This document shows positions 8,101 through 39,528 of a stretch of DNA of 64,000 bases, in pieces. A program made the translations under genes and the position numbers. The DNA is from Rheinheimera hassiensis (GTDB lineage: Bacteria > Pseudomonadota > Gammaproteobacteria > Enterobacterales > Alteromonadaceae), in the NCBI RefSeq assembly GCF_022436675.1, contig NZ_JAKUJZ010000011.1, positions 62,001 to 126,000 of the forward strand, in the 5' to 3' direction. Position 1 is the first letter of the stretch; every line of letters begins with the position of its first letter. Under the pieces are notes generated by a model that saw nothing but the letters and a program-made list of their open reading frames with translations, was not told the origin of the DNA and made no database searches.

Positions 8101-11100
8101 AGCTCAGACACTTAATATAAGCGGCAATACGCTGGACAACACCCGCGGGCAACTGCTGGCAGCTGCAGAGCTGAATATCAACACCGGGCAGTTAACCAAC
8201 CTTGATGGTGTTATCAACAGCCAGCAGACGCTGCAGCTAAGTGCGACAGAGCTAAATAACCGCTCAGGTGTAATACAAGGCGTTAATTCGTTTAGTGCTC
8301 AGGTGCAGGGCAGTACCGATAACCACAGCGGCCAGTTACTGGCTGGTGATAACCTGCAATTACACACCGGCTTGCTTAATAACGCCCAGGGCACAGTAGC
8401 TGCTGGCGGGCAGCTGAATATACACACCACAGAGTTGCAAAATACCGCGGCTGGCGTAATCAGTGCCAGAGAGCTAAATATTACTGCGGCTACGCTGCTC
8501 AATGATACCCAGGCCAGAATAGAAGGGCAGCAACTTCAGTTAACAACCCAATCACTGACCAATGCCGGCACCTTGCTGGCAGCGGGCCAGCAGGGCGACT
8601 CTCTGGTTCTGAATACTGACGTGCTTAATAATCAGGGGCGTATCGAAAGCCATGGTGAAAACCTTAGCCTGACTAATTTGCAGCTTAATAACCAGCAAGG
8701 GCAAATTTACCATCTGGGTACTGGCGTGTTAAGTATTGAAGCACTGGATCAATTGCAAAATCAGGCCGGGCAGTTAATCACTGCTGGCAGGTTGGTGTTG
8801 CAATCAGACACGTTGCTCAATAATGCCGGTGTTATTGAGTCCGCTGACAGTATTAACCTGAATCACAGAGTTCTGAACAATGACGCTGGCAGTATTCTGG
8901 CTGCCGGAATACAAGGCAGCTCTATAGCCAGTGAAGAGTTATCAAACAACAGTGGCATTATTGCAGTAGACAGTGAACTGCTGAATATGACTGCGACAAC
9001 GTTAGCGAATGAAAGTGGCTATATCTTTGCAAATGGTGTTCTGACTGTTGACGCGAAGACGCTGGAAAACCAGCAAGGCGAAATGTTTGCCGGCCGTTTG
9101 GTATTGCGTGCCGATGAAGTCAATAATACCGGCGGCACTCTGCTGGCAAACCGTGAGTATGGGGAGTCGTTTGATATCAACATCAGCGGCACTTTGCATA
9201 ACGAGTCGGGGCAATTATTGGGGGCCGGGCAATCTGCACGCATCAGTACCAATACGCTAAACAATGATACTGGTGTTATCGCGCTTGCGGGAACAGATGT
9301 ACTTACCATTGTTGGTAATAATGTAAACAACAATACCGGGCAGATTTCTGCTGGTGGGCAGTTAGCGTTGCAGGCTCATGTACTGCAGTCAGCTGGGCAG
9401 ATTGGTGCTGCTGATATTAACCTTCAGGTTGACCAGCTCAATAACAGTGGCCAGTTGAGTGCAGAGCAGAGCATACAAATTGTAGCTCAACAAATAGATA
9501 ACAGTGGTCAGTTGGCTGCCCGGCAACTGACTATTTCTGCTGATAATGCAGTTAACAGCGGCACAATGCTGGCGTCCGCAGCAACGGGTGAAAGTATGCT
9601 GCTTAACCTGCAGCAGTTGCGAAACAGCGGTACGATAGTCACTAACGGCACAGCACTCAGGCTCAACCCAATCAAGTTTAATAACGACGGTGGTACATTG
9701 CTGCATACTGGTAGTGGCGTGTTATCCATCGAAACGCTGGATATACTGGACAATTTGGCCGGTGCCATAATCACGAACGGCGATCTTCAGCTTGTTGCAG
9801 AGCAACTGAATAATGATCAGGGTTTGCTGCAGATTGCGGGTACTGCCAGTATAGATGTTTCAGCATTGCATAATCTTAGTGGTGACATCCTGGCACTGGG
9901 AAGCGAGAAGTTAATGCTGACGGTTCAGCAATTACTGGATAATAGCGCAGGCCGGATTATTGGTGGCCAACTGGAAATTAACAGTGCCAATCTGCTTAAC
10001 CAGGCCGGGCAACTAGCCGCTGTCAATGGATCGGGTCAAGCGTTGGCCGTGCATATCAGCGATACACTGGATAATACTAGCGGGCAGATATTGAGTACCG
10101 GGCAGGCGGCACTGATTAGCAGTAATCGTCTGATTAATGCTAATGGTCAGATCCTGCAGGCTGGAGATGGCAGCCTACTGCTGCAGGCAAATGTTATCGA
10201 TAACAATACAGGTGGCCAGATCAGCAGTAGTGGCATGTTGCAGCTAAATGCCAGCCAAGTTACCAATACTGCTGAGATAGTATCTGTAGGTCATTTAGAT
10301 ATTCATACCGATCGCTTAACCAACAGTGGCCTGATACAGGCCGACAGTCTTAACGTTAGTGCACAAGAGCTGAGTAACCGTCATGGCCAATTACTGGCGT
10401 TGGGTAATAACGGTCTGGCGCTGGACGTTGCCAGTACGCTGGATAACCGCGCTGGCTATATTGCAGCTAACAGCCAGCAAATGGTTATCAACGCGGCAGA
10501 GATATTAAACCAGGGCGGCAATATACAAGCCCGCCACGCATTAACAATAGAAGCACAGCAACTAAACAACCAGCAAGGTCTTATCAATGCAGCGGATGCC
10601 ACCTTAACGCTGGGAGAGTTGGATAACACCACGCAGGGCCAACTGCTGGTGGCGGGACAATTAGATCTGGTCAGCCATGAAGTGAATAACGATGGGATAA
10701 TCAGTGCGACCACACTGACTGCAGATATAGCAAAGCTAACAAACCAGGCGGATGGTCAGTTAACGGCAGAAATACTGCAGCTGTCAGGGGGCGATCTGCA
10801 AAACAGCGGATTGATTTATGCCGATAACCTGCAACTACAGGCAGAGCAGTTGCATAACAGTGGGCTGTTGCAGGTGTTGCAGCAAGGCAATATCAATGTG
10901 GTAACCTTGCTTAACCAGCAAGGTTCGATGCTCAGTGGCGATATACTCGCTATTCAGAGCCAGCAACTGAGCAACTCCGGCGGCTTGTTGCAGGGTGGGC
11001 AGATCCAGCTCGACAGTCGGCAACTGCTGAACGATGGTGGTCAAATTCTGGCTCTGGGTGAGCAGGGGCTGACAATGAATGTCAGTGAGCAACTGGATAA

Positions 11101-14100
11101 TCTGGATGGCATCATATATAGCGGCGGTGAACACTCGGTGGTGAACGCCACGATGTTGAACAATAGTGGGTTAATCAGCCATAGCGGCACAGGCAATCTG
11201 CAACTGCAGGGCGAAGCTTTACACAACAGCGGACAAATAGAAAGTGCTGGCCGTTTACAACTTACTACCACAACACTGAACAACACCGGTGAGCTTAGTG
11301 CAGATAACCTGTCAATCCAGGGCAGCAGTCTAAGTAATAGCGGTACAGTAAGTGCTAATGAGTTATTGGTGCAGGCAGATACCTTGCTTAATCAGGGCGA
11401 GCTAAGTGCGGCGCAGGTACAACTGCAATTGCAGCAACTGGACAACAGTGGCTTGGTACTGGCTAGCGGTGAGGGGCAGCAAAGCCTGCAACTGGCCGCG
11501 GAGCATGTGCGTAATCAGGGCATTATAGCCAGCCAGGGAACAGAACTGAATTTGCAATTATCAACACTGGATAACAGCAATGGCCAGCTGTTGCACTTTG
11601 GTGTTGGTGTACTGAGTATTGATACGTTGCAGGCGCTGACGAATCAGCAGGGCCAGATTTACAGTGCCGGTAATCTGGCACTACAGGCCGACAGTCTGGA
11701 TAACCGCAGCGGGGAGCTGCAGGCGCAAGCGATTAGCTTAAGCAGCACACACCTGGATAACCGTGGCGGCCAGGTGCTGGCTCTGGCTCAGCAGGGTAAC
11801 AGCCTGACCGTACAGGTAAACAATGTGCTCGATAACCGGGCCGGTACTTTATACAGTGCCGGGGGCGAAGCTACAGTAACCGCAGATAGCTTACTGAATG
11901 CAGCGGGCAGCGTGGTACAAGCCGGCAGCGGCCGTTTAACGCTGAGCACAGCTATGATAGCTAACGGTGCAGACGGTGTTATTGCCAGTAATGACGCGTT
12001 ATGGCTTGAAGCCGGGCAACTGGAATCAGCCGGCCAGCTAAGTGCGCAAGAATTACATATTCAGGCAGATACGCTGGTCAATAGCGGTGCTATTGAGGCG
12101 GCTAATCTGCAACTGGGGGCAACCAATACAAATAACAGCGGGCTGATTGCCGCACAGCAACAGCTGGTGCTGAACGGCACAGCTCTGACCAATAGCGGGA
12201 CTATTTTTAGTGAAGGCAACTTAACCCTTACCAGCGACCAGGTAACCAATGCCGGCACTGTGGCGCAATCTGGTATTGGTGTGTTGCATCTTGACGTGTT
12301 GGACAGCCTGAATAACCAGTCAGGCCAAATCATATCTGAAGGCGCGCTGTTGTTAGCTGCCAACAGTGTCAATAATAATCAGGGGCTTATCCAAACTGAG
12401 CAGGGGGCTAGCATAGGGGCCGCTAACCTGCTGAACCAGAACGGCAAAATACTGGGTATTGGTGCGCCTGAACTGGCTATTAATGTACAGCAAACGCTGG
12501 ACAATACCTCTGGTGTTATCGGTGCAACAGATATGGTGCTGTCTGCCGGCAATCTTATTAATAATGCAGGTTTAGTACAGGCTGAGCAGGCAAACATCCT
12601 TGTTACAGCATTGAACAATAACAATGGCCGTCTGTTCAGTGACCAACTGCAAATCCAGGCAGCTAATCTGAGTAATAATGCCGGCCTGATAGTGGCCAAC
12701 GACAGCCTGTTACTGCAGGTAGAGCAGGCACTGGATAACAGCCAGGGCGAGCTTGTCATCACTGACGGCAATGCCAGTATCACTGCAGGCACCCTCAATA
12801 ACGATGACGGTATTATCAGCCAGTTAGCCGGGCAGAGCCTGCAGCTTAACAGCAGTGTTATAACGAATAACGGTGGTACGCTACATAGCGCACAGCAGTT
12901 AAACATCAATGCGGCACAGCTTGACAACAGTGGCCTGGTGGATGCCGCTACGCTGATTGTAGTAACCGACAGCCTGACTAACAGTGGCACTATTCAGGCG
13001 GAAAATGCCCGGCTTAGCAGCACGCAACTGGTCAATGAGGGCCTGTTACTGGCCACCGGTACTGTGGGTGAATCTCTGCAGCTTGACGTTGCTAACGGCA
13101 TTGTCAACCGCGGCCATATTCAAAGCCATGGCCAAAACCTGATGCTGCGCGATGTACTGGATAATGATGGCGGCACGCTGGTCCATGCCGGTAGCGGCGA
13201 ATTGCAGCTGGCACAATTATCCAATCAACAGGGTACGGTGTATGCAGGCAATGCCCTAACCATCGCCGGTAAGGTGCTAAACCGGGAAGGTGTATTGCAG
13301 GCGCAGGGTGCGGTAAATATCAGCGGCGCTGAGCTGGACAATAACGGTGGCGTTATCCGTAACGGCGGTAATCTGCTGCTGGATATTACAGCACTGGATA
13401 ACCGTAACGGTGAGCTGAGCAGTCAGGGCGCTACCGCTGAACTGAAAGTGGCCGGTAGCATTCTTAATGCCGGAGGCATTATTGTCAGTACCGGGCAGCA
13501 ACTGGACGTGCAGGCAGCAGAATTACTGCAGGGCGATGGGGTTATCGCCGGTCACGGTCTCGTCAATATCGCTGCCGGGCAGCTTAGCCTTAGTGAAGGC
13601 GGGCAAATCAGTGCCGGGCAAGCGTTAGAGCTAAGTGCGGACACACTGAGCAATCTGGGTTTGTTAAGTGGCCAGAATGTGCTTGTGCAGGCAAGCGTAC
13701 TGGATAACCAAAGCGGGGTAATAGAAGCGGCAAACCGCCTGCAAGTGGCAGCCGGCTACATTAATAATACTGCAGGTACCTTGGTAAGCCAGGGCGAACT
13801 CAGCCTGGATTTACAAGGCCAGCAAGACGGTATTGCACTGAACAACAATAATGGCCAGATTATAGCGACTGGTGCTTTAACCCTGGTTACACCTTTTGCG
13901 GTGAATAATACCGCCGGGCAGTTGTTAAGCGAGCAACAACTGCAGGTACAGGCCGGCGTGCTGAACAATAGTAGTGGTGAGATACTGGCTGGCAGCGGCT
14001 TAACGGTTAATCTGGATACGGTGTTAGATAACAGTGGTGGTGTGCTGTATACCCGCCAGGGCGATATGACACTGATAGCCCAAAGCCTGCTCAACGATGC

Positions 14101-17100
14101 TGACGGCTTGATACTGCAGCACGGCACCGGGCAGATGCAACTGACGCTGAATGCGCTTAACAATAATGGTGAAATAGGGGCTGGAACAGTATTAGCCGTG
14201 ACGGCGCAGCAGTTAACCAACAGCGGTTTAATACAGGCCTCAACCGTTGAGTTGGCGGCAGAGCAACTGCGCAACAGCGGAAATTTGCTGGGTGATAACC
14301 TGTTTATCAGTGCTAACCAGCTTAATAACACCGACGGCACTATAGCGGCACTGGCCACCGACAGTATGCTGCAAATCAACGCAGCTGAGCTGAACAACCA
14401 GCGCGGCCTGATCCAAAGCCGTGGCAACGCTATGCAACTGAATACTGTGCTGAACAATCAGCAAGGCGATGTGGTGTTGCTGGGTAATGGCACACTAAAT
14501 ATCAGTGCACTGGCGAATAACCAGCAGGGGCGCATTCTCAGTGAGGGCGCGGTAGCATTAGCCGGTGTGGTGAATAACAACCAGGGCGTCGTGCAGGCGG
14601 CGACAGATCTGCAGCTTGCTGGTACTGACATCAGCAATATTGCCGGTGTGATGCATGCCGGTGGCGCGCTGAACATCAGTGGTAACAGCCTGATTAACCA
14701 AGGCGGTAAAATTTCTGCTGCCGGGCAAAGCTATCAGCTGGCTATCAGCGGTGCAATAGACAACAGCCTCGACGGCATACTGACCACTACCGGTAATATG
14801 CAGATAACGGCCGCCAGCTTAAGTAATACGTCCGGCCTGATTTACCAGCAGGGCGATGGCAGTTTGCTGTTGCAGGTAGATAACACGCTGAATAATAACG
14901 ACGGCACTATTGCTGCAACTGATTTGGCAATAACGGCAGACCGGCTGAACAACAATACCGGCCTGATACAAGGCGGAGCTGTGGATATCAGCACGGCGCT
15001 ATTGAACAATAACGCCGGCACGATTTACCAGCAAGGCAGTGCCGGTAAGCTGAATATTAGCAGTGGTAGTTTAACTAATGATGCCGGCCAAATCTCAGCG
15101 CTGGCTGATGCCAGTATCAGCGCAGGCCAACTTAGCAACAATGCCGGCCGCATAGAAAGCGGCAGCGCACTGCACCTTAGCGGTGGTGCTCTGAATAACG
15201 ATAGCGGCAACCTGGTTGCCAATAATATCACTATGCAACTGACAGGTGGCCTGAGCAATAATCAGGGCACTTTGTTTGCTGCAGATACGCTGACGATTAC
15301 CGCAGACAGTATTGATAATGCGCTGGGAACCTTAGCCGCTAATGCCGATATACAGCTGACAGTAGCTACCGGGCTTACCAACAACCAGGGCTTATTGCAA
15401 GCCGCAGGCAACCTTGTAGCCAGCGCACAGCAAATTGACAATAGCGCCGGAACCATACAGGCCACAGCGGCGCAGCTAAATGCCCAGCAGAGTATTAATA
15501 ACACAGCAGGGGTGATTAACGCCCAGACACTGGCATTAAGTACTGCCACGCTGGACAACAGTTACGGTGTTATTCTTGCCACCGACACCAACGACAACTC
15601 GTTGCAGCTAACTGATATTACTCAGTTAAATAACAGCAACGGTACCCTTGCCAGCCATGGCCGCAACTGGGATTTTACCCTGGCGGGCCTGAACAACGAC
15701 AACGGGAAGCTGTTACATCTGGGCTCAGGTACTTTTACCTTGTCTCAGGCGGGCAATTTAGCCAATACCGGTACCATAGCGTCAAATGCTAATCTGGTGA
15801 TAAATGCCGGTAATGTTAGCAATAGCGGTACTTTGCAGGCACAGCAACAGCTGCAGCTTAATTCTGCCCTGGCTAACCAGACCGGTGCCGTGCTGGTAGC
15901 CAACAATATTACGGTTAATGCTGCCGGCAATACTATTACCAACGCGGGTAGCATTTCTGCTGCGAACAACCTGCAGCTGGACGCCGTCAGCCTGAATAAC
16001 AGCCATTTACTCTATGCCGGCAATAATGCGCTGGTAAAGGCTGCCAACGTTAGCAACAGCGGTACCTGGTCGGCCAATAACCTGAATGTATCCGGCTTTA
16101 ACCTGTTGCAAAATAGCGGCCGCATTGAAAGCAATACTGCAAGTTATACCGGTAATACGCTGCAAAACCAGGGTAGCGGTGTGCTGATTAACGCTGCCAC
16201 TGCGGCCAACAGCTTGCAGCTTAATGTGGCACAGCTAACCAACAGCGGCACCCTGTATAACAATGCCCGTGATATGAGCTTTGGCGGCAACCTGAGCAAC
16301 AGTGGCAGCATTATTCATGCCGGCACGGGCAACTTACTGCTTGGCAATAACGGCACCATCAACAATGCCGGTGGCAGTATTGCCAGCGCAGGTTTGGCTA
16401 CCATTCAAAACAGTATTCTCGGTGCCGGCACCGTTTATGCTGAACAGGGTATGCTGATCAACGGCAGTGGTACCTTTACCAACAACAGCCAGCTGTATAC
16501 CAAAGGCAATATGCAGGTAAACAGTGCGCTGCATAACCAGGGCGGCAGCCTGCTAAGTGATGGCAATCTAACCATTAATACTGCAGGTAGCGTAACTAAC
16601 ACGGGCAGTCTGCAAGGGCAAAACCTTAGCCTGACAGCCGGGGCACTAAATAATAATGGCGGCACTATTACATCGACGGGCACTAATAATGCGCAAATCA
16701 GTGCGGCCAGCCTGAGCAATAACGGCGGTGTTATTCAGGCAACCAATAATAACTTCAGCCTTATTACCCGCAGTGGCGAGCTGAATAACAGCAATGGTCA
16801 AATCAAGCACGGTGGTAATGGTCTTCTGACACTGCAAAGCGCCAGCCATCTGAACCAACAATCCGGCCTGGTGCAAAGCGCTGGCCAGTTAGTGGTAACG
16901 GCACAGGGTAACCTGGATAACAGCTATGGCGTGTTATCTGCCAGCCAATATCAGCTTACCAGCAGTGGCACCCTTACCAATAATAACGGCCAGATTATTG
17001 CTACAAGCAGCGGCACCGGCAGTGGCTCAAGCAGTATTCAAAGCGGCACCTTGCTTAACCGCAACGGGCACATTGCTGCCAATGGCACTAACCTGACACT

Positions 17101-32638: not shown

Positions 32639-32654
32639 TGCGCGCTGTCGCACA
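32639..32654 (+). promoter_or_regulatory. Operator site 1 (TGCGC-N6-GCACA) before the triple-BON gene
   Basis: TGCGCGCTGTCGCACA. The centre lies 32 bp before the centre of the -10-like TATTGT at 32676-32681, and the site ends 79 bp before the start codon. It matches the window's repeated Crp/Fnr-type operator. Confidence 0.65.
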
Positions 32655-32733
32655 GAACGACATAAATAACAAGCCTATTGTATGGTACCGGATAGTGCAT
32701 TTCTGTGCTGTCTGAGCTGACAACGAGGTTTAT

Positions 32734-33576
32734 ATGAACAAGTTTCATGCAAAGTTGCTACTGGCAACCGCAATAACATTAGCGTTAGGCAGTGCGCAAG
32801 TTGTCGCCGATGACAAGATGGCAGCGAAAGCGAAAAGTGGGCCGGTAGTGGATGCCCGCCAGGAAGCTCAAATCTGGACTACCTATACACTAAGCCCTTA
32901 TTTACGGGCCAATGATTTAACCGTTACGGTGCTGGATGGCAAAGCTACGCTTAGCGGCAATGTCGAAGACGATGTACACAAAGATCTGGCCGGTGCTATT
33001 GCTGCCGGTGTTAGCGGTATTAGCGATGTTGACAACAAAATTACTGTAGATGCTGATTATAAAACGCCTGATCGCAGCAGCACCCGCGGTTACGGCGATG
33101 TAGTAGACGATGCCACTATTACCACTGCCGTAAAGTCAAAGTTGCTGTGGAGCAAGCATACCGAAGGTATGGACACCAAAGTGGTAACTAATGCAGGTAA
33201 AGTTGAGCTAAGCGGCACAGTAGCGACACAACAGGCAGAAAAGCTGGCAAAAAAGCTGGCAAAAAATACTGATGGCGTGCGCTCAGTAGACAATAAACTG
33301 CAGGTTAGCGACACAACAACTGATGGCAAAAGCTATAAAAAGGCCGATGCGGAAAAAGGCAGCGTGATCGCCGATAGCTGGATCACCACCAAGGTTAAAT
33401 CAACTTTTATGTACTCCAGCAATGTAGCCGGGTCTGATATTTCGGTTAATACCGAAAAAGGCGTGGTTACACTGGCTGGCAGAGTAGGCAGTGGTGCAGA
33501 GCAAGCTCTGGCAATTGAACTGGCGCAGAATATCCGCGGAGTAAAAAGTGTGGCATCACGCCAGCTTATTTTTTAA
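32734..33576 (+). CDS. Periplasmic protein with three BON domains (OsmY-like)
   Basis: BON domains bind phospholipid or other envelope surfaces, and OsmY-type proteins are osmotic or stationary-phase stress proteins. The 280-aa product has a signal peptide (1-25, cut near VVA-DDK). Three BON repeats lie at about 45-110, 122-190 and 213-280, each with the pattern of a short helix, a Val-rich strand and LSGxV or LAGRV (TLSGNVEDD, ELSGTVATQ, TLAGRVGSG). OsmY itself has two BON domains, so this is an enlarged version. It is preceded by an operator shared with six other promoters in the next 6 kb. Confidence 0.88.
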   Translation: MNKFHAKLLLATAITLALGSAQVVADDKMAAKAKSGPVVDARQEAQIWTTYTLSPYLRANDLTVTVLDGKATLSGNVEDDVHKDLAGAIAAGVSGISDVDNKITVDADYKTPDRSSTRGYGDVVDDATITTAVKSKLLWSKHTEGMDTKVVTNAGKVELSGTVATQQAEKLAKKLAKNTDGVRSVDNKLQVSDTTTDGKSYKKADAEKGSVIADSWITTKVKSTFMYSSNVAGSDISVNTEKGVVTLAGRVGSGAEQALAIELAQNIRGVKSVASRQLIF

Positions 33577-33661
33577 GCAGCCAACCTGGGCTTAGGTTAG
33601 GTTTACCGGCCCAAGCCAACAGTTGCTTAAACTGTGTTAACCGGAAAAGGTGGGCATTGAT

Positions 33662-34384
33662 ATGAACGAGCCGCAGTATGCAAACCCGCAAGTGTTGCGT
33701 AACACTATGCTGCAGCTTAACGTTGAAGCGTTAAGTGCCGAAATGGTACGGATGCGCTGCGAAGTGATATTGCAGCAAAATATCTGGTTGCGACAACAGC
33801 GGCATTTACAACAACATAATCAGTTGCTGCTGTTAACCCTGATGCAGGCGGTTAGCCAAAATGCCAGTACCCAAACCAAGCTGCAGCAAGTAAACCTGGA
33901 AAGCCAGTGTGATGCACTGACCAAAACACTTAACCGCAGCATTATGCTGGACCGTATAGACCATGCCATTAGCATGTCGAAACGGCAACGACGCCGCTTT
34001 GCGCTGTTATTTATTGATCTGGACCGGTTTAAACCGGTCAATGATCAGCATGGCCATGCTGCCGGTGATGCGGTACTGCTGCAAGTCAGTGCGCGTTTAA
34101 CCGCCGCTGTACGCGACAGTGATGCGGTAAGCCGGCACGGTGGTGATGAGTTCTTGTTGCTGCTTAACGACATTAAAGATAATCAGGCGGCTACCTTGTT
34201 TGCCAATAAACTGGTGCAGGTGTTGGCGCAGCCTTACCAGATAGCAGGAGCGAGTGTTTTATTATCCGCCAGTATAGGTATGGCGTTGTTCCCTGAGCAC
34301 GGCAACAGTGCTCATACCCTGATTAGCTGCGCAGACGCTGCTATGTACCGCGCCAAGCAGCAAGGTGGTAACCGGGTATGCTAA
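33662..34384 (+). CDS. Diguanylate cyclase (GGDEF protein)
   Basis: The protein would make c-di-GMP from two GTP. From the ATG at 33662 (ribosome site AAAAGGTGGG about 7 bases upstream; a GTG at 33650 would add four residues) it has 240 residues. A helical, Gln-rich N-terminus (about 1-80) may dimerise and contains no known sensor domain. The GGDEF domain follows from DALTKTLNRSIMLDRID. The active site is intact as GGDEF at 160-164. The product-inhibition I-site RxxD is present as RDSD at 151-154, exactly five residues upstream. No signal or membrane segment is seen. No copy of the shared operator was found before it. Confidence 0.9.
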   Translation: MNEPQYANPQVLRNTMLQLNVEALSAEMVRMRCEVILQQNIWLRQQRHLQQHNQLLLLTLMQAVSQNASTQTKLQQVNLESQCDALTKTLNRSIMLDRIDHAISMSKRQRRRFALLFIDLDRFKPVNDQHGHAAGDAVLLQVSARLTAAVRDSDAVSRHGGDEFLLLLNDIKDNQAATLFANKLVQVLAQPYQIAGASVLLSASIGMALFPEHGNSAHTLISCADAAMYRAKQQGGNRVC

Positions 34385-34409
34385 GGCCTGGCGAAATCTG
34401 TTGGCGCTA

Positions 34410-34425
34410 TGCGCGCCAGCGCACA
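34410..34425 (+). promoter_or_regulatory. Operator site 2 before the DUF4398/OmpA-type lipoprotein operon
   Basis: TGCGCGCCAGCGCACA. The centre lies 32 bp before the centre of the -10-like CATAGT at 34447-34452, and the site ends 75 bp before the start codon. It is very similar to site 1 across TATGCGCGC and CGCACAGA. Confidence 0.65.
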
Positions 34426-34500
34426 GACAGCGGTTGGTTTTAACGGCATAGTGAAACAGGGCTCACTTTCGCTGCAGCCCCGGTTTATCAGGAGCTATAG

Positions 34501-34932
34501 ATGAAAACACACATTGCCGACACTCTGGTTAGCGCAGAGCCTTTATCCAGAGCACGATCTGGCAAACGCTGGCTGTTACTGGCCAGCGCCGTTGTAGTAT
34601 TAAGCGGCTGTGCTTCAGCACCACTGCCACCCACGGCTGAAATGCAGGCAGCAGAACGCGCCATTGGCACGGCTGAGCAGGCGCAGGTTGTGCGTTACAC
34701 CACTGTCGAGCTTGATACTGCGCGTAAAGAGCTGGCAGCTGCACGCTTAGCCATAACTGAAGAAAATATGCCGCAAGCCAGACGGCTGGCGCTGCAAGCG
34801 CAGTTAAATGCCGAGCTGGCCCTGGCTCGCGCTGAGCTGGTTAAAGCGCAGGCAGTAAATAAAGATATGCAGCAAAGTATTGACGCCGTGCAGCAGGAAG
34901 CCCAGCGTAATATGTCAGGAGTAAAACTATGA
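34501..34932 (+). CDS. DUF4398-type lipoprotein
   Basis: This 143-aa protein has a signal anchor and lipobox LSGC (Cys about 37) followed by a long helical, Ala/Glu/Gln-rich stretch (AERAIGTAEQAQ, LDTARKELAAARLAI), the pattern of DUF4398 envelope proteins. The N-terminus before the hydrophobic core is long (about 23 residues). AGGAG precedes the ATG. The stop overlaps the next gene's start as ATGA, so the two lipoproteins are coupled and probably work together on the cell envelope. Transcription would start at the operator-controlled promoter near 34450. Confidence 0.82.
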   Translation: MKTHIADTLVSAEPLSRARSGKRWLLLASAVVVLSGCASAPLPPTAEMQAAERAIGTAEQAQVVRYTTVELDTARKELAAARLAITEENMPQARRLALQAQLNAELALARAELVKAQAVNKDMQQSIDAVQQEAQRNMSGVKL

Positions 34933-35855
34933 ATAGCGCGCTTTCTTCAGAAAAAATGTCTGTTAGCAAAACCTTGCTTAGCCTGAGCCTGGCGGCCGTG
35001 TTTGTTGCCGGTTGTGCCAGCGCACCGAAAAGCCCGGATGGTGCAGCTAATGTGCGCCAGCAGCTTATTCAACTGCAAGGCAACCAACAATTGGCGGTGT
35101 TAGCGCCACTGGCTATAAAAGAAGCAGAGCAAGCTGTTATTGCCGCTGAGCAACCGGAAAAAAATACCGCTTTAGCCGCCCACCGGGTGATTATGGCCGA
35201 ACGCAAAGTAAATATGGCCAGCACCCAGGCGCAAACCCGTTTGCTGGAGTTACAACGCGACAGTTTAAGCCAGAAACGTGACGAAGTACGGCTGACTGCC
35301 CGCACTCAGGAAGCCGCCAGCGCCCGCGCTGACGCCAGTGATGCACGCAGTGATGCTGAAATGGCCCGTTCGCAAGCCAGCAATGCTCAGGCCAGCGCCG
35401 CCATGGCACGCCAGCAAGCCGATGCCGCCGCAGCAACCGCTGCTGCCACTACAGCAGATCTGCGGGCCCAAATAGCTGAGCTTAATGCCCGGCCAACCGA
35501 CAGAGGCTTAGTAGTAACACTGGGCGATGTGTTGTTTGACACCGGCAGGGCTAACCTGAAAAGCGGCACCAGTAATCATCTGGATAAACTGGCGGAGTTT
35601 TTAAACGCCTATCCAACACGCACGGCACAAATTGAAGGCCATACCGACGACGTAGGCTCTGACGCTGCCAATATGCTGTTGTCGCAGCGGCGCGCCGATA
35701 CCGTTAAAGCATTTTTGGTCGCGCAGGGTATTGCTGCCAGCCGCCTGGATGCATCTGGCAAAGGCGAAACTACACCATTGGCCAGCAATGATTCAGCCGG
35801 TGGCAAGCAACAAAACCGCCGGGTAGAAGTAATTATCGCCAACATTGCAGAATAA
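34929..35855 (+). CDS. OmpA-family peptidoglycan-binding lipoprotein with DUF4398-like N-terminus
   Basis: The 308-aa product has a lipobox VAGC (Cys about 29), a DUF4398-like helical part (about 40-190, very Ala/Gln/Ser-rich), and a C-terminal OmpA domain (about 195-305). The OmpA domain shows VLFDTGRANLKSGTSNHLDKLAEFL, the peptidoglycan-contact motif IEGHTDDVGSDAANMLLSQRRADTV and NRRVEVIIAN. It would link the outer membrane to peptidoglycan. Its N-terminal half resembles the preceding small lipoprotein, suggesting duplication and fusion. The gene overlaps the upstream gene by four bases and is closed by a strong terminator at 35882-35907. Confidence 0.88.
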   Translation: MNSALSSEKMSVSKTLLSLSLAAVFVAGCASAPKSPDGAANVRQQLIQLQGNQQLAVLAPLAIKEAEQAVIAAEQPEKNTALAAHRVIMAERKVNMASTQAQTRLLELQRDSLSQKRDEVRLTARTQEAASARADASDARSDAEMARSQASNAQASAAMARQQADAAAATAAATTADLRAQIAELNARPTDRGLVVTLGDVLFDTGRANLKSGTSNHLDKLAEFLNAYPTRTAQIEGHTDDVGSDAANMLLSQRRADTVKAFLVAQGIAASRLDASGKGETTPLASNDSAGGKQQNRRVEVIIANIAE

Positions 35856-35881
35856 TACTGCCAGGCGTTAACCTGATAAAC

Positions 35882-35907
35882 ACACCCGCTCTGGCGGGTG
35901 TTTTTTT
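35882..35907 (+). terminator. Intrinsic terminator of the lipoprotein operon
   Basis: ACACCCGC (35882-35889) pairs perfectly with GCGGGTGT (35894-35901), loop TCTG, followed by a run of T to 35907. Confidence 0.9.
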
Positions 35908-35912
35908 GTATG

Positions 35913-36695
35913 CTAGGGTGTACCTTGTTCTGCTAATAAACGTTTTGCGGTGTCGGGTATTGGTTCGCCCAGCAAGCGACGGTAATTGTCTATTCCTACC
36001 TGATAGCATTCACAGGCCGCATGTTTTAACGCGGTGCGGTCTAATATACTTATCATGCCGCGGCTGTAACTAATATATTGTTTTTGCTGTAAAATGCCTG
36101 CCGCTACGGTAACGCCACTGCGCCGCACGCCTAACATATCCGCCAGAAACTGATGCGTCAGATGAAAATCATTACTATGCGCCCGGTCATGGCTCATTAA
36201 CAGCCAGCGCGCCAGGCGGTAATCCAGCTCATGAAAATGCGCGCAGGCCGCGCTTTGTGACAACTGCGCCATTAACACAAACAGATATTGCTGCAATATA
36301 TGCTGCAGTTGCGGGCAATCGTGCAGCAGTTGCTGCAGCGCGGCAATATCGATACGCCAGGCCGTGCCTTTGCCTTGCACCACAGCCTGCATCGGCGCGG
36401 TAGTTATGCCAAGTGCCAGCGTAACGCCCAGCATACCTTCGTTGCCAATTAAGCCCATTTCCAGCGGTTTATGCCCGGCCAGCTTGGTTACCAGCGAAAT
36501 AAAGCCACTTAGCGGGAAATACAAATAGCGGTAGCGCTGCTGCGGCTCGCACAATAGCGTGCCAAACTCCAGCTCTACCACATCACAATGTTGCAACAGC
36601 AATACACGTTCTTTTTCTGACAGCAAATTAACTAAATGATTAGTAATAAGCGGAACAGTTGAAACAGACATAGCGCTGGCCTCTAGCACTGGCAT
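35913..36695 (-). CDS. Crp/Fnr-family transcription regulator (paralog 2)
   Basis: The 260-aa protein (or 252 aa from the second ATG on the complement of 36669-36671) has an N-terminal cyclic-nucleotide-binding-like beta-barrel (about 25-140). The C-terminal helix-turn-helix reads LTHQFLADMLGVRRSGVTVAAG. No cysteine set of the Fnr type and no clear cAMP-contact RS motif is visible, so the effector is unknown. It is the paralog of the adjacent gene; the recognition helices (LGVRR-GVT-AAG-LQ) are almost the same, implying similar DNA targets. Operator site 3 lies 70 bp before its first ATG, suggesting auto- or cross-regulation. Confidence 0.88.
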   Translation of the reverse strand: MPVLEASAMSVSTVPLITNHLVNLLSEKERVLLLQHCDVVELEFGTLLCEPQQRYRYLYFPLSGFISLVTKLAGHKPLEMGLIGNEGMLGVTLALGITTAPMQAVVQGKGTAWRIDIAALQQLLHDCPQLQHILQQYLFVLMAQLSQSAACAHFHELDYRLARWLLMSHDRAHSNDFHLTHQFLADMLGVRRSGVTVAAGILQQKQYISYSRGMISILDRTALKHAACECYQVGIDNYRRLLGEPIPDTAKRLLAEQGTP

Positions 36696-36765
36696 TGCCG
36701 TAATGGCGCAAGACAGGTGCTGTGCAGCCTTGGCGTCTGAGTATAGCGGTTTTGGGTTGTGGCTC

Positions 36766-36781
36766 TGTGCGCTAAGCCACT
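36766..36781 (-). promoter_or_regulatory. Operator site 3 before Crp/Fnr paralog 2
   Basis: In the gene's direction the site reads AGTGGCTTAGCGCACA. The -10-like TATACT on the complement of 36740-36745 is centred 31 bp downstream. The outer half matches less well than the inner GCACA half. Confidence 0.6.
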
Positions 36782-36784
36782 AAG

Positions 36785-37540
36785 TTATGTATTGTTGCTG
36801 GGTAGGTATTGCAGCAGCCGGTCGGTTTCAGCTTTTACCACTTCGTAGCATTCGCAGCTTAGTTGTTCCAGTTTAGGCCGGTTGATAACCACGATATGAC
36901 CACGGCTGTAGTCAATAACGCCTTGTTTTTGCAAGCGGCCGGCCGCTTCGGTTACGCCTTCACGGCGCACGCCAAGCATATTGGCTATCAGCTCTTGTGT
37001 CATCACCAGGTGATTGTCTTTTAACCTGTCCAGCGACAGCAATAACCAACGGCATAATTGCTGATCAATACTATGGTGGCGGTTACATACCGCGGTTTGC
37101 GCCATTTGTGTCAGTAACGCCTGCGAGTAGCGCAACATTAACTGCAGCAGCTCGCCATGGCGGTTAAACTCGTCTTTCATCCGCTGGCCCAGTAACCGGT
37201 AAGCAAAACCGGCACTTTGCACTATGGCGCGGCTGGTGGTGCTTTCGCCGCCCATAAACAGCGCAACGCCAACAAGGCCCTCGTAACCGACTACTGAAAT
37301 TTCAGCCGAGGCGCCATTTTCCATGACATACAGCAAGGACACTATGCAATTAGTAGGAAAATACACATAGCGCATAACATCGCCAGACTCATACAACACC
37401 TTACCCAGCGGCATTTCAACCAACTCCAGATGCGGAAATAACCGCTGCTGCACATCAGCAGGCGCGGCATTAAGCAAAAGGTTTTGCGTTGGCTGGTTTT
37501 TAACGGTGGCACAGTGTTGCTGTGATGCCTGCAGGGGCAT
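36785..37540 (-). CDS. Crp/Fnr-family transcription regulator (paralog 1)
   Basis: The 251-aa product has a cyclic-nucleotide-binding-like domain (about 25-150; VEMPLGKVLYESGDVMRYVYFP, VVGYEGLVGVALFMGG). The C-terminal HTH is MTQELIANMLGVRREGVTEAAGRLQKQG, followed by IDYSRGHIVVINRPKLEQLSCECY. It belongs to the Crp/Fnr branch often found as tandem paralogs and has no obvious Fe-S cysteine pattern. It is transcribed toward paralog 2, with operator site 3 between them and operator site 4 before it. It is a strong candidate for the protein that binds the repeated TGTGC-N6-GCACA sites (inference). Confidence 0.9.
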   Translation of the reverse strand: MPLQASQQHCATVKNQPTQNLLLNAAPADVQQRLFPHLELVEMPLGKVLYESGDVMRYVYFPTNCIVSLLYVMENGASAEISVVGYEGLVGVALFMGGESTTSRAIVQSAGFAYRLLGQRMKDEFNRHGELLQLMLRYSQALLTQMAQTAVCNRHHSIDQQLCRWLLLSLDRLKDNHLVMTQELIANMLGVRREGVTEAAGRLQKQGVIDYSRGHIVVINRPKLEQLSCECYEVVKAETDRLLQYLPSNNT

Positions 37541-37599
37541 AACGATGTCCTTATGTTATCAGGAGTGGTTATCAGTATAGTTAAGCAAAATGTCAGCTT

Positions 37600-37615
37600 T
37601 GTGCGTCAGCGAACA
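37600..37615 (-). promoter_or_regulatory. Operator site 4 before Crp/Fnr paralog 1
   Basis: In the gene's direction the site reads TGTTCGCTGACGCACA. The -10-like TATACT on the complement of 37574-37579 is centred 31 bp downstream, and the site ends 59 bp before the start codon. Confidence 0.65.
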
Positions 37616-37632
37616 TAAAATAAAAAGCGGTA

Positions 37633-37944
37633 TTATTTAACCCGCATATCATTTTTTACTGCAGTGACGCCGGTAATTTCACGCGCTACCCGGATGGCGG
37701 TAGTAATATCTTCTGCAGAGCTGACAAAGCCACTTAGTTGTACTACGCCTTTAAACGTTTCGACATTAATTTCGCTGACTTTAAGTGAAGCAGTATTAAA
37801 AATAGCGGCTTTTACCTTAGTGGTGATTACGGTGTCGTCTACATATTCACCGGTGCCAGCCCGGGTAGCAGTGGCGCCGCAGCCTGCTAATGTCAGGCTG
37901 AATAAGCCTACTAACAAAATGGCGCAAATACTTTGCTTTTTCAT
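37633..37944 (-). CDS. BON-domain lipoprotein
   Basis: This 103-aa protein has a type II signal peptide with lipobox LAGC (Cys22) and one BON domain (about 36-103; DDTVITTKVKAAIF, VQLSGFVSSAEDITTAIRVA, GVTAVKNDMRVK). It would be anchored to a membrane facing the periplasm and resembles single-domain OsmY relatives. Its promoter carries the perfect palindromic operator (site 5), shared divergently with the PRC-barrel gene region. Confidence 0.88.
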   Translation of the reverse strand: MKKQSICAILLVGLFSLTLAGCGATATRAGTGEYVDDTVITTKVKAAIFNTASLKVSEINVETFKGVVQLSGFVSSAEDITTAIRVAREITGVTAVKNDMRVK

Positions 37945-38015
37945 GATGTATGTCCTGTTTTTTGGGGGAATGGGGTTTTTACCGCTGAACGTTACGCGTT
38001 AATAAGCCAAAACTC

Positions 38016-38031
38016 TGTGCGCTAGCGCACA
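38016..38031 (-). promoter_or_regulatory. Operator site 5, perfect 16-bp palindrome before the BON lipoprotein
   Basis: TGTGCGCTAGCGCACA is fully self-complementary, and flanking CTCTGT (38013-38018) and ACAGAG (38033-38038) extend the dyad. The TGTGC-N6-GCACA layout has Crp/Fnr half-site spacing. TAACGT on the complement of 37989-37994 is centred 32 bp downstream as a -10 for the BON gene. Confidence 0.8.
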
Positions 38032-38050
38032 AACAGAGCTGTATTTGTTT

Positions 38051-38066
38051 GGTGTTGTACCGCACA
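38051..38066 (+). promoter_or_regulatory. Operator site 6 before the PRC-barrel gene
   Basis: GGTGTTGTACCGCACA keeps the GCACA half next to the gene; the outer half is weak. TATGCT at 38088-38093 is centred 32 bp downstream as a -10, and the site ends 85 bp before the start codon. Confidence 0.55.
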
Positions 38067-38151
38067 GAGCTGACCTTGTTGTTGCGTTATGCTTTGCCCA
38101 ACATGCGGCAACACTCTCGTTTGGCTGCAGGTTTTCAGGCAGGAGCGACAT

Positions 38152-38571
38152 ATGAACTACGAAATGCGTGACACTTTTGGTATGTATAAAGGCACTTTGA
38201 ATGGGCCCGGCCCGCAACTGATGGGCGCCAATACCCTGGTAGGTAACGATGTTTACAACCACAAGGAAGAGAGCCTGGGCGACATTAAAGAAATTATGCT
38301 TGATGTTGGCAATGGCAAAGTCAGCTATGCCGTGCTGTCGTTTGGTGCCTTTTTAGGCATGGGCGAAAAGCTGTTTGCTGTGCCGTGGAGTGCGCTGACA
38401 CTGGATACAGAAAACAAACGCTTTGTCTTAAACATAGAAAAAGACCGCCTACGTGAAGCTCCGGGTTTTGACAAAAATAAATGGCCAAATATGGCAGATA
38501 AAGCCTGGGCAAAACATGTAGATACCTACTATGCCACAAAGCAGCCGGACAATTTTCCCGACTCAGTGTAA
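38152..38571 (+). CDS. PRC-barrel domain protein
   Basis: The start at 38152 is preferred because AGGAG lies 6 bases before it; an upstream in-frame start would add 21 residues lacking a ribosome site. The 139-aa protein has a PRC-barrel (about 24-100; LVGNDVYNHKEESLGDIKEIMLD, KVSYAVLSFGAFLGMGEKLFAVPWSAL) and a polar C-terminus. It has no signal peptide. Such proteins are common near BON and OmpA-type stress genes, and their molecular role is unknown. It is followed by a terminator at 38585-38608. Confidence 0.88.
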   Translation: MNYEMRDTFGMYKGTLNGPGPQLMGANTLVGNDVYNHKEESLGDIKEIMLDVGNGKVSYAVLSFGAFLGMGEKLFAVPWSALTLDTENKRFVLNIEKDRLREAPGFDKNKWPNMADKAWAKHVDTYYATKQPDNFPDSV

Positions 38572-38584
38572 TAACACTCACCAG

Positions 38585-38608
38585 GCCCGTTAATACAAAC
38601 GGGCTTTT
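38585..38608 (+). terminator. Intrinsic terminator of the PRC-barrel gene
   Basis: GCCCGTT (38585-38591) pairs with AACGGGC (38598-38604), then TTTT. Confidence 0.8.
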
Positions 38609-38617
38609 ATCTGGCTA

Positions 38618-38633
38618 TGTGGTGTAGCGCACA
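38618..38633 (+). promoter_or_regulatory. Operator site 7 with near-consensus -10 before the 48-aa membrane protein
   Basis: TGTGGTGTAGCGCACA is followed by a perfect TATAAT at 38656-38661, centred 33 bp downstream. A transcription start near 38668 would put the operator centre at about -42, the class II activator position. The site ends 61 bp before the start codon. Confidence 0.7.
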
Positions 38634-38694
38634 TACAGCATTAAAAGCCGCGCGATATAATAAAGCCCTTTTCATAATTTACAGGTAAGTTGCT

Positions 38695-38841
38695 ATGTTA
38701 GAAACAATTATTGTGCTGCTGGTTATTCTTTGGGCGTTGGGGCTGGTATCTTCTTATACCATGGGTGGTTTTATCCATATTTTGCTGGTTGTTGCCCTGG
38801 TTGTGGTAGCAATACGCTTGATCCGCGGCCGCAGGATCTGA
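38695..38841 (+). CDS. Small membrane protein of the lmo0937/DUF5670-like type, 48 aa
   Basis: This short gene encodes MLETIIVLLVILWALGLV and so on, ending IRLIRGRRI. Two hydrophobic segments (about 3-20 and 24-42) flank a SSYTMGGFIHILL turn, the hallmark of the tiny lmo0937-type membrane proteins that often sit in stress clusters. The ribosome site is AGGTAA about 8 bases before the ATG. It lies behind operator site 7 with a consensus TATAAT and 27 bp before the degenerate GGDEF gene, so the two are probably one transcript. The function of the family is unknown. Confidence 0.82.
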   Translation: MLETIIVLLVILWALGLVSSYTMGGFIHILLVVALVVVAIRLIRGRRI

Positions 38842-38868: not shown

Positions 38869-39528
38869 ATGCAACATAAACTCAGTGTAGTAACGCAGAT
38901 TTACGGTGCCTTGCCCTCAACACAAAAAATATTGCTATCGCCAAGGCGCAGCTATGCCGAGTTGCAGCAAGCCCTGCAGCGGGCTGAAAGTATTACCGAG
39001 CGTACCTTGTGCGAACTGCTGGCGCTGCAACAAAGCCAGTTGTTGGGTACTAAGGCTGAAGCAACTGATAAACTGCAAATACAGCCACAGCTGAGTTACA
39101 TGATTAAGCAGGCTCAGCGCAATGGCAGCAGTTTTGCCGTGTTGTTTGTGCAACTGGATCATTATAAAAATATTTATGACGGCCACGGTGCTGTAGTGGC
39201 TAAACAGGTTAGCGAAGCAGCTCTGGCGCGTATGGTAGCGACACTGCGCGATTGTGACAGTATTAGCCAGCAGGCGGATGATCAATTTTTACTGCTGATA
39301 ACCGATGTGTCACGTATTTATGATGCCGTGCTGGTAGCAGAAAAGCTAAAACAGAAGTTGTCGATATTACACGGCGTATCTGTGCTGCCGCTTCCAATCA
39401 CTGTCAGCATTGGTATCAGCCGTTTTCCGCAAGATGGTAACGACGCCGGCTTACTGATAGAAAGAGCCGCCGCAGCGCTGCTGCATGCGCAAAACCGGGG
39501 CGGTAATCAGTTTTCGTTATTGCGTTAA
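38869..39528 (+). CDS. Degenerate GGDEF protein with retained I-site, possible c-di-GMP sensor
   Basis: The ATG at 38869 has AGGGGG about 5 bases upstream and gives 219 residues; an upstream TTG is possible but less likely. The fold of a GGDEF domain is visible from IQPQLSYMIKQAQRNGSSFAVLFVQLD onward. The catalytic loop reads ADDQF at 136-140 instead of GGDEF, so cyclase activity is very unlikely. The I-site RxxD survives as RDCD at 127-130 with the correct five-residue gap, which would allow c-di-GMP binding. The N-terminal 70 residues are helical. It is probably co-transcribed with the 48-aa membrane protein. The sensor role is inference. Confidence 0.78.
   Translation: MQHKLSVVTQIYGALPSTQKILLSPRRSYAELQQALQRAESITERTLCELLALQQSQLLGTKAEATDKLQIQPQLSYMIKQAQRNGSSFAVLFVQLDHYKNIYDGHGAVVAKQVSEAALARMVATLRDCDSISQQADDQFLLLITDVSRIYDAVLVAEKLKQKLSILHGVSVLPLPITVSIGISRFPQDGNDAGLLIERAAAALLHAQNRGGNQFSLLR

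Follow-up and report, generated by a model that had tools for sequence, protein, structure and literature searches.

A predicted compact regulon of the Crp/Fnr-type regulator CrpA and its 20-bp palindromic operator in Rheinheimera hassiensis

The class II activators of the Crp/Fnr superfamily, such as CRP and FNR of E. coli, GlxR, MtbCRP, and NtcA, bind palindromic operators with TGT(G) half-sites that are centred at about -41.5. The operator of CRP is TGTGA-N6-TCACA; that of FNR is TTGAT-N4-ATCAA. Here, a 64,000-nucleotide stretch of the Rheinheimera hassiensis genome (contig NZ_JAKUJZ010000011.1, positions 62,001 to 126,000; the window) was analysed, in which seven operator-like sites lie between positions 32639 and 38633, around the genes of two Crp/Fnr-type paralogs. 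The regulator at 36785-37540 is named CrpA here, and its paralog at 35913-36695 is named CrpB. The analyses suggest, with a probability of roughly 0.84, that this region is a self-contained regulon of CrpA as a Crp/Fnr-superfamily activator. CrpA has the same fold and two-domain Pfam architecture as the described class II activators, and its operators are likewise palindromic with TGT(G) half-sites and a centre near -41.5, as judged from the position of the -10 box. However, the operator TGTNCG-NTAN-CGNACA differs from those of both CRP and FNR; it takes the form TGTGCGNTANCGCACA and does not follow the FNR-type TTGAT-N4-ATCAA pattern. CrpA also lacks the cAMP-pocket residues and the cysteine pattern of FNR, and has an invariant C-terminal CECY motif and a last helix at residues 231-245. 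A Crp/Fnr class II regulon is thus of a known kind, but CrpA, its operator, and its regulon are apparently widespread and undescribed.

Two described systems are closest in other respects. According to excerpts of one report, hybrid sites in Herbaspirillum seropedicae are proposed to bind Fnr3-Fnr1 heterodimers, and the fnr1 site is centred at -42; the heterodimers are backed by two-hybrid data, and the Fnr proteins are oxygen-sensing, iron-sulfur regulators of respiration (PMC5934665). That system and the present one share two paralogs, a co-regulated promoter of one paralog, and upstream and downstream operator halves of different kinds; they differ in that the heterodimer there has two-hybrid support, whereas the CrpA-CrpB pair is known from sequence alone. 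The lxa locus of Burkholderia cenocepacia also contains clustered stress genes, including one for a BON protein, and a Crp/Fnr-type regulator, BCAM0049, is suspected there; as far as the excerpts of these reports go, BCAM0049 is an Anr/Fnr homologue (PMC6127331, PMC9104464, PMC3759415), and the Anr box is TTGATCTCGATCAA (PMC9104464). The clustered stress genes and the type of regulator are alike in the two systems, while the Anr/Fnr regulator and its box are different. The one locus of a CrpA homologue scanned in B. cenocepacia, an unannotated one of four such places in the record, has four matches to the matrix described below (13.2-18.1 bits), none of them with a -10 score of at least 4.0 at 31-33 bp. 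The lxa locus, as presented in those excerpts, was rejected as a described counterpart because of its Anr/Fnr-type regulator and box and because this locus has no convincing promoters. No description of this regulator or regulon was found in the literature searched, a search that most subscription journals fell outside and in which the spelling 'Crp/Fnr' was possibly missed.

The original prediction had listed seven 16-bp sites in the window, and all of them were found in place. On the forward strand, operator 1 (TGCGCGCTGTCGCACA, 32639-32654), operator 2 (TGCGCGCCAGCGCACA, 34410-34425), operator 6 (GGTGTTGTACCGCACA, 38051-38066), and operator 7 (TGTGGTGTAGCGCACA, 38618-38633) were assigned to the promoters of a triple-BON gene, a DUF4398-OmpA operon, a PRC-barrel gene, and a DUF5670/lmo0937 peptide gene with the following GGDEF gene, respectively. 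Their -10 boxes are TATTGT (32676-32681), CATAGT (34447-34452), TATGCT (38088-38093), and TATAAT (38656-38661). On the reverse strand, operator 3 (AGTGGCTTAGCGCACA, 36766-36781; -10 TATACT at 36740-36745) belongs to the crpB promoter and has a defective distal half; operator 4 (TGTTCGCTGACGCACA, 37600-37615; -10 TATACT at 37574-37579) belongs to the crpA promoter and keeps the distal CG; operator 5 (TGTGCGCTAGCGCACA, 38016-38031; -10 TAACGT at 37989-37994) is a perfect palindrome at the promoter of a single-BON lipoprotein gene. Operators 5 and 6 both serve the divergent gene pair 37633-37944/38152-38571. The -10-like hexamers lie at the predicted distances from the operator centres, namely 32, 32, 31, 31, 32, 32, and 33 bp for operators 1 to 7. 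The GCACA of the promoter-proximal half is identical in all seven sites, as had been noted; the shared element is longer, CGCACA. The description of the central N6 as free bases was not upheld: these six bases are constrained (consensus GNTANC), and a T and an A two bases beyond the 16-mer are also conserved. The best -35 elements at 16-18 bp spacing match only 2, 4, 2, 2, 2, 2, and 3 of the six bases of TTGACA at operators 1 to 7, and these poor matches were counted as support for the class II reading.

The ten-base consensus is by itself insufficient proof of a regulon. In the window, 37 places match it at 8 or more of 10 bases, and two of the seven operators themselves reach no more than 8. 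It is the comparative data that carry the proof. These were drawn from 92 loci with a CrpA ortholog, including 12 stretches from 10 family members and 80 from named genomes. A matrix of the operator and the -10 box was trained on 86 of these loci, excluding six Rheinheimera and Arsukibacterium loci and the window itself. When it was applied to the window, the first 14 rows were the seven sites in both orientations (15.5-29.7 bits), and the next row scored 7.9. The operator is defined as a 20-bp palindrome, TNTGTGCGNTANCGCACANA, which consists of a T at -2, TGT, a variable base, CG, N-T-A-N, and then the mirror image. Among 1024 gapped palindromes counted in the noncoding DNA of the 92 loci, TGTGC-N6-GCACA was the commonest (62 copies with at most one mismatch), and the runners-up, TGTAC (35) and TGTTC (33), are further forms of this motif. 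The dyads are kept upstream of orthologous genes in other genomes, and at least one oriented promoter was found in 83 of the 92 loci.

The spacing to the -10 box is also conserved. Among 114 oriented sites picked blind to the -10 box, a -10-like hexamer stands at 32 bp in 36, at 31 bp in 9, and at 33 bp in 7, with 0-6 at other offsets; 29 permutations of the half-site gave a mean of 27.6 sites (maximum 60) in place of 114. A symmetrised, operator-only matrix found 194 noncoding sites, whereas 20 permuted matrices found a mean of 0.3 and at most 2. Read in both directions, these sites have 96 hexamers at 32 bp, 37 at 31 bp, 14 at 33 bp, and 2-15 elsewhere. With one locus for each of 28 genera, picked by hand and not blind to the counts, 121 sites were found, at least one in 28 of 28 loci, with 58 hexamers at 32 bp compared with a mean of 3.6 and a maximum of 10 elsewhere. 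A -10-like hexamer is thus about 15 times commoner at 32 bp from the operator centre than at other distances. The gene calls were crude (longest open reading frames, ORFs), which leads to errors in the 'noncoding' label and in the assignment of targets. In 'coding' DNA, 153 further matches were found at 14 bits (permuted matrices: mean 5.2, maximum 23), and many of these are probably promoters beneath spurious ORFs.

The number of sites follows the presence of CrpA. Copies of TGTGCGNTANCGCACA with at most one mismatch were counted against a backward control. In a draw of 143 genomes of the class, where CrpA was taken as a match of at least 56% identity over most of its length, 15 genomes with CrpA have 40 sites (control 14; 2.67 per genome), and 128 genomes without CrpA also have 40 (control 41; 0.31 per genome). 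Of the 15, 7 have at least three sites; of the 128, none does. In a draw of 59 genomes of the family, with CrpA taken at 60% identity or more, 16 sites were found in 11 CrpA genomes (control 7) and 20 in the other 48 (control 28).

Within the genome of R. hassiensis, the motif is not abundant outside the cluster. The 20-bp pattern with at most three mismatches occurs at 29 places, including the seven sites of the window, compared with 21 in the backward control. Thus, neither a lack of conserved dyads nor an abundance of the motif, two of the outcomes that would have spoken against the original prediction, was observed. Since there is little excess beyond the cluster, the description of the regulon as compact appears right, probably with one member in trans. 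Eight of the 22 remaining places were inspected, and one fits fully: the site at G000:C69:272280-272299 (L260) scores 21.6 bits, has a -10 box CATGAT at 32 bp, and precedes the gene of a 115-aa BON lipoprotein, which is likely an eighth regulon member. A weaker candidate at G000:C22:489265-489284 (15.0 bits, CAAAGT at 32 bp) precedes a 396-aa frame and lies itself within an open frame. Coarser patterns are less useful: the ten-base consensus with at most two mismatches gives an uninformative 2125 matches per strand, and a pattern of half-site and -10 box gives 29 matches (backward control 22), five of them in the cluster. Four identical copies of TGTGCTTTAGCGCACA were noticed in a genome without a CrpA match (G058:C1, at 1838846, 2339869, 2687182, and 3842209); these are perhaps a repeat element or the site of another regulator.

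Both paralogs are encoded on the reverse strand and belong to the Crp/Fnr superfamily, with PF00027 and PF13545 above the cut-off in each. CrpA has 251 aa and CrpB 260 aa, and they are 36% identical. The closest CrpA match in a named genome is from Rheinheimera pacifica (92% identity over residues 1-243). According to its orthologs, its co-occurrence with the sites, and its structure model, CrpA is the probable operator binder. A genome was taken to have no clear CrpB when its best match was at most 41%, and two loci at 44% (L119 and L104) were left out. Among 29 named CrpA genomes without clear CrpB, an oriented promoter stands near crpA in 23 and in none of the other 6; the 29 include 14 loci that had been chosen for having sites (14 of 14) and 15 from 24 other named CrpA-only loci (9 of 15). 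Because the sites persist in these 23 genomes, CrpA is the likely binder, and CrpB is apparently not required for the sites. Two further genomes with CrpA and no clear CrpB have sites (G011 and G016), and a third has none (G002). In the reverse direction, CrpB without CrpA was not found among 295 genomes of the order: a CrpB of at least 50% identity occurs in only two, the window's own and G457, which is too small a number to carry weight, and both have a CrpA-like copy.

The recognition helices also differ. In CRP, R and E contact the two G-C pairs of TGTG. The helix of CrpA, RREGVT[ED], keeps this R-E pair, with E in 92 of 92 readable copies (of 98) and E or D four residues further on in 86. 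Of the 38 CrpB copies, 30 were readable; 29 of these have S in place of the E, and 28 have I or V at the second position. Since R-E is kept in CrpA and replaced by S and I/V in CrpB, CrpA is the better fit to the symmetric operator. The original prediction had taken both paralogs as binders of the same sites. For CrpA this is favoured by the co-occurrence and by the sites in genomes without clear CrpB; for CrpB it is conjectural: the predicted base-contacting residues differ and its own operator is of the half-defective type.

According to the reading preferred here, a CrpA dimer would bind the 20-bp operator, whose centre is some 41.5 bp upstream of the predicted transcription start, stand in for the missing -35 element, and recruit a sigma-70-type RNA polymerase to the -10 box. 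The sharp 32-bp peak and the poor -35 elements (2-4 of 6) are those of a class II operator, and the position near -42 that had been proposed agrees with them, as estimated from the -10 box. CrpA would raise its own synthesis through operator 4 and that of CrpB through operator 3. Five output units would be activated: the triple-BON protein with a diguanylate cyclase, the DUF4398/OmpA pair, the BON lipoprotein, the PRC-barrel protein, and DUF5670 with a degenerate GGDEF protein. The further BON lipoprotein elsewhere in the genome would also be controlled. The sequence of the operator, its spacing and conservation, the target families, and the co-occurrence with CrpA are observed features. That CrpA itself binds, that it activates and does not repress, where transcription starts, and what CrpB does are predictions, and the physiological meaning, we infer, would be an envelope or general-stress response.

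Several points weigh against this reading. Repression from a site at -41.5 is conceivable, and the -10 box of operator 5 is weak. No oriented promoter was found in 9 of the 92 CrpA loci, and a near-perfect site is missing in three CrpA genomes of the class draw (G075, G084, and G142) and in one of the family draw (G037), although the CrpA locus of the last has imperfect sites. Seven of the nine promoter-less loci come from genomes without clear CrpB, and the loci that hold CrpB themselves all have promoters (38 of 38). CrpB may therefore matter more than assumed, and a helping role is possible. The matrix was seeded with sites having a -10 box at 31-33 bp, and the rescans with 194 and 121 sites covered mostly its training loci, so that the 36 of 114 at 32 bp is the sole spacing count free of this seeding. 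Many loci are also related, and the counts are thus not independent.

The crpB promoter differs from that of crpA in the distal half of its operator. For this comparison, sites were selected by the proximal half and the -10 box only, and were grouped mostly by genus, with some single loci or genomes as groups. The distal CG is present in 40 of 43 sites at crpA promoters (the majority in 23 of 25 groups), in 0 of 31 at crpB promoters (20 groups), and in 2 of 18 at DUF5670 promoters (12 groups). Rows were dropped for their -10 score, a distance above 140 bp, or the proximal half (crpA 16 of 59, crpB 6 of 37, DUF5670 3 of 21), and among these the distal CG occurs in 7 of 16, 1 of 6, and 3 of 3, respectively. 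In the loci that hold CrpB, the 22 oriented crpB operators all have the proximal CG and none has the distal CG, and a pyrimidine occupies position 6 in 20 of them. The distal half of operator 3 in the window (AGTGGC) is of this crpB type. Such a conserved half-defective operator suggests either tuning or a heterodimer.

The first possibility, that the asymmetric operators are weaker CrpA sites that order the activation (crpA first; crpB and DUF5670 later), while CrpB acts elsewhere or as an antagonist, has slightly better than even odds. The asymmetry is polar over all promoters: among 232 sites, the distal half is defective in 76 and the proximal half in 12 (54 and 12 without crpB). It is also found in genomes without CrpB. 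The position-6 pyrimidine at crpB looks more specific than a loss of affinity, although it may also come from shared descent. Of the two readings, a weak CrpA site by which crpB is delayed is the simpler.

The second possibility is that a CrpA-CrpB heterodimer binds a hybrid operator at crpB, with CrpA on the proximal CGCACA and CrpB on the altered distal NGTGNY. This is a tentative and rather doubtful reading. The complete lack of the distal CG at crpB, in sites chosen regardless of the distal half, and the pyrimidine at position 6 agree with it, as do the differences at the predicted base contacts (E and mostly E/D in CrpA; S and mostly I/V in CrpB). The excerpts from H. seropedicae offer a precedent of hybrid half-sites at -42 (PMC5934665). 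However, a plain low-affinity CrpA site would give the same pattern, and distal defects also occur at DUF5670 promoters of genomes without CrpB. At promoters other than those of crpB, 8 of 109 operators in loci with CrpB have the pyrimidine-type distal half, compared with 3 of 29 in 14 loci without CrpB, which is no enrichment; the two groups had been set before the 24 CrpA-only loci were added. A dependence of half-defective operators on CrpB was therefore rejected outside crpB promoters. The two paralogs and the conserved, hybrid-looking operator form a natural case in which to study the division of binding sites between duplicated activators.

The signal of CrpA might differ from those of the described regulators. 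The structure model of CrpA (pLDDT 87.9) matches Crp/Fnr structures, and its closest Protein Data Bank matches are GlxR, MtbCRP, A. fischeri FNR, and NtcA; the query-normalised TM-score is mostly 0.55-0.72 among the best 50 matches, with 14-22% identity. In the HMMER alignment to GlxR (4cyd), CrpA has a gap and a Ser in place of a Glu and an Arg that we take to form the cAMP phosphate pocket, and it does not look like a cAMP receptor. In FNR and Anr, invariant N-terminal cysteines hold a [4Fe-4S] cluster. The invariant cysteines in 66 CrpA sequences are C152, C163, C229, and C231, and none lies in residues 1-151, unlike the FNR pattern. H155, H156, and the C-terminal C229-E-C231-Y (the CECY motif) are also invariant, and CrpB keeps C151, H155, C228, and C230 in 30 sequences. 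The model of CrpA places these residues where the long helix 129-155 ends, within the helix that follows, and where the final helix 231-245 begins. The set might be a metal or thiol site, as a guess from the model; to our knowledge, this position is not a known sensor site of Crp/Fnr proteins.

A third and more speculative reading, which is considered unlikely, joins these observations into a tunable two-part switch. CrpA homodimers would start the response at symmetric operators, and oriented CrpA-CrpB heterodimers on the hybrid crpB operator would sustain or cap it. The signal would be read at the Cys/His set common to both paralogs (C152, H156, C229, and C231 in CrpA; C151, H155, C228, and C230 in CrpB) and not at a nucleotide pocket. 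The set may lie between the dimer helix and the C-terminal extension and act as a metal or redox site.

Two explanations dispense with an operator of CrpA altogether. The GCACA element might be the -35 of an alternative sigma factor, which would account for the fixed spacing to the -10 box and the absence of a normal -35; this is very improbable, as most crpA promoters keep both halves of what is a long, two-fold symmetric palindrome, the number of copies follows the presence of CrpA, and 20-22 bp separate the end of the element from the -10 hexamer. A chance assembly of degenerate sites picked by eye, for which the 37 near matches of the ten-base consensus in the window might speak, is regarded as already refuted, since the matrix trained on other genomes puts exactly these seven sites at the top, more than 7 bits above the next place, in line with the original prediction, and the promoters are conserved across many genera.

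The predicted target genes encode proteins of a few families. On the forward strand, the triple-BON protein (32734-33576; three BON domains) is OsmY-like, and 85 bp downstream lies the gene of a GGDEF protein with an intact motif, as read in the translation (33662-34384), which is probably co-transcribed with it. The DUF4398 protein (34501-34932) and the OmpA-family protein (34929-35855) follow on the same strand; both have a lipobox-like start by eye, and the second has a DUF4398 similarity under the Pfam cut-off. The single-BON protein (37633-37944, reverse strand) is also OsmY-like, with a lipobox-like start by eye. The PRC-barrel protein (38152-38571, forward strand) was assigned the ATG at 38152 as its start, since a start at 38089, which gives a longer frame, would place the coding sequence over the -10 box. 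The 48-aa membrane peptide (38695-38841, forward strand) matches the lmo0937/DUF5670 family, and downstream of it, on the same strand, lies the gene of the degenerate GGDEF protein (38869-39528), in which ADDQF replaces GGDEF.

This last protein had been called a GGDEF relic, but it does not resemble a decaying pseudogene. An intact GGDEF motif was found in none of its 10 relatives, despite 57-94% identity, while the motif is intact in 37 of 44 relatives of the 33662-34384 protein. This suggests a selected non-catalytic role, perhaps the binding of c-di-GMP.

In the other loci, 342 predicted target ORFs were collected, of which 81, in 57 loci, are CrpA or CrpB. The recurring families are GGDEF, BON, PRC-barrel, DUF5670, and DUF4398, with fewer CsbD, DUF3309, and DUF883; the Pfam search covered 127 of 169 target representatives, and 108 of 135 target clusters are single ORFs, many of them probably wrong calls. 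BON, PRC-barrel, CsbD, DUF4398, DUF3309, and DUF5670 are otherwise met as scattered 'stress' genes of unclear purpose, and here they are given a common predicted regulator with a single operator and a single promoter layout, in a regulon that is unusually well defined from sequence alone. This layout is shared by Gammaproteobacteria, including many Pseudomonas, and some other lineages, so that the response could be predicted and tested in any such genome.

Some individual CrpA loci may be mentioned. Seven (L125, L146, L155, L156, L157, L159, and L088; four of them named Pseudomonas) have CrpA with no clear CrpB and no detectable promoter, and CrpA may have a different role or operator there. 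Four loci labelled Klebsiella, Desulfovibrionaceae, and Phycisphaerales (L133, L148, L128, and L136) come from metagenome bins, and their taxonomic labels may be wrong. A CrpA homologue (79.7% identity) is also encoded on the conjugative plasmid pKLC102 of Pseudomonas aeruginosa (L251, about 8108-14380). Six matrix matches lie near it, three of which have a -10-like hexamer at 32 bp and precede genes annotated as hypothetical; it seems that the regulon is carried by mobile DNA.

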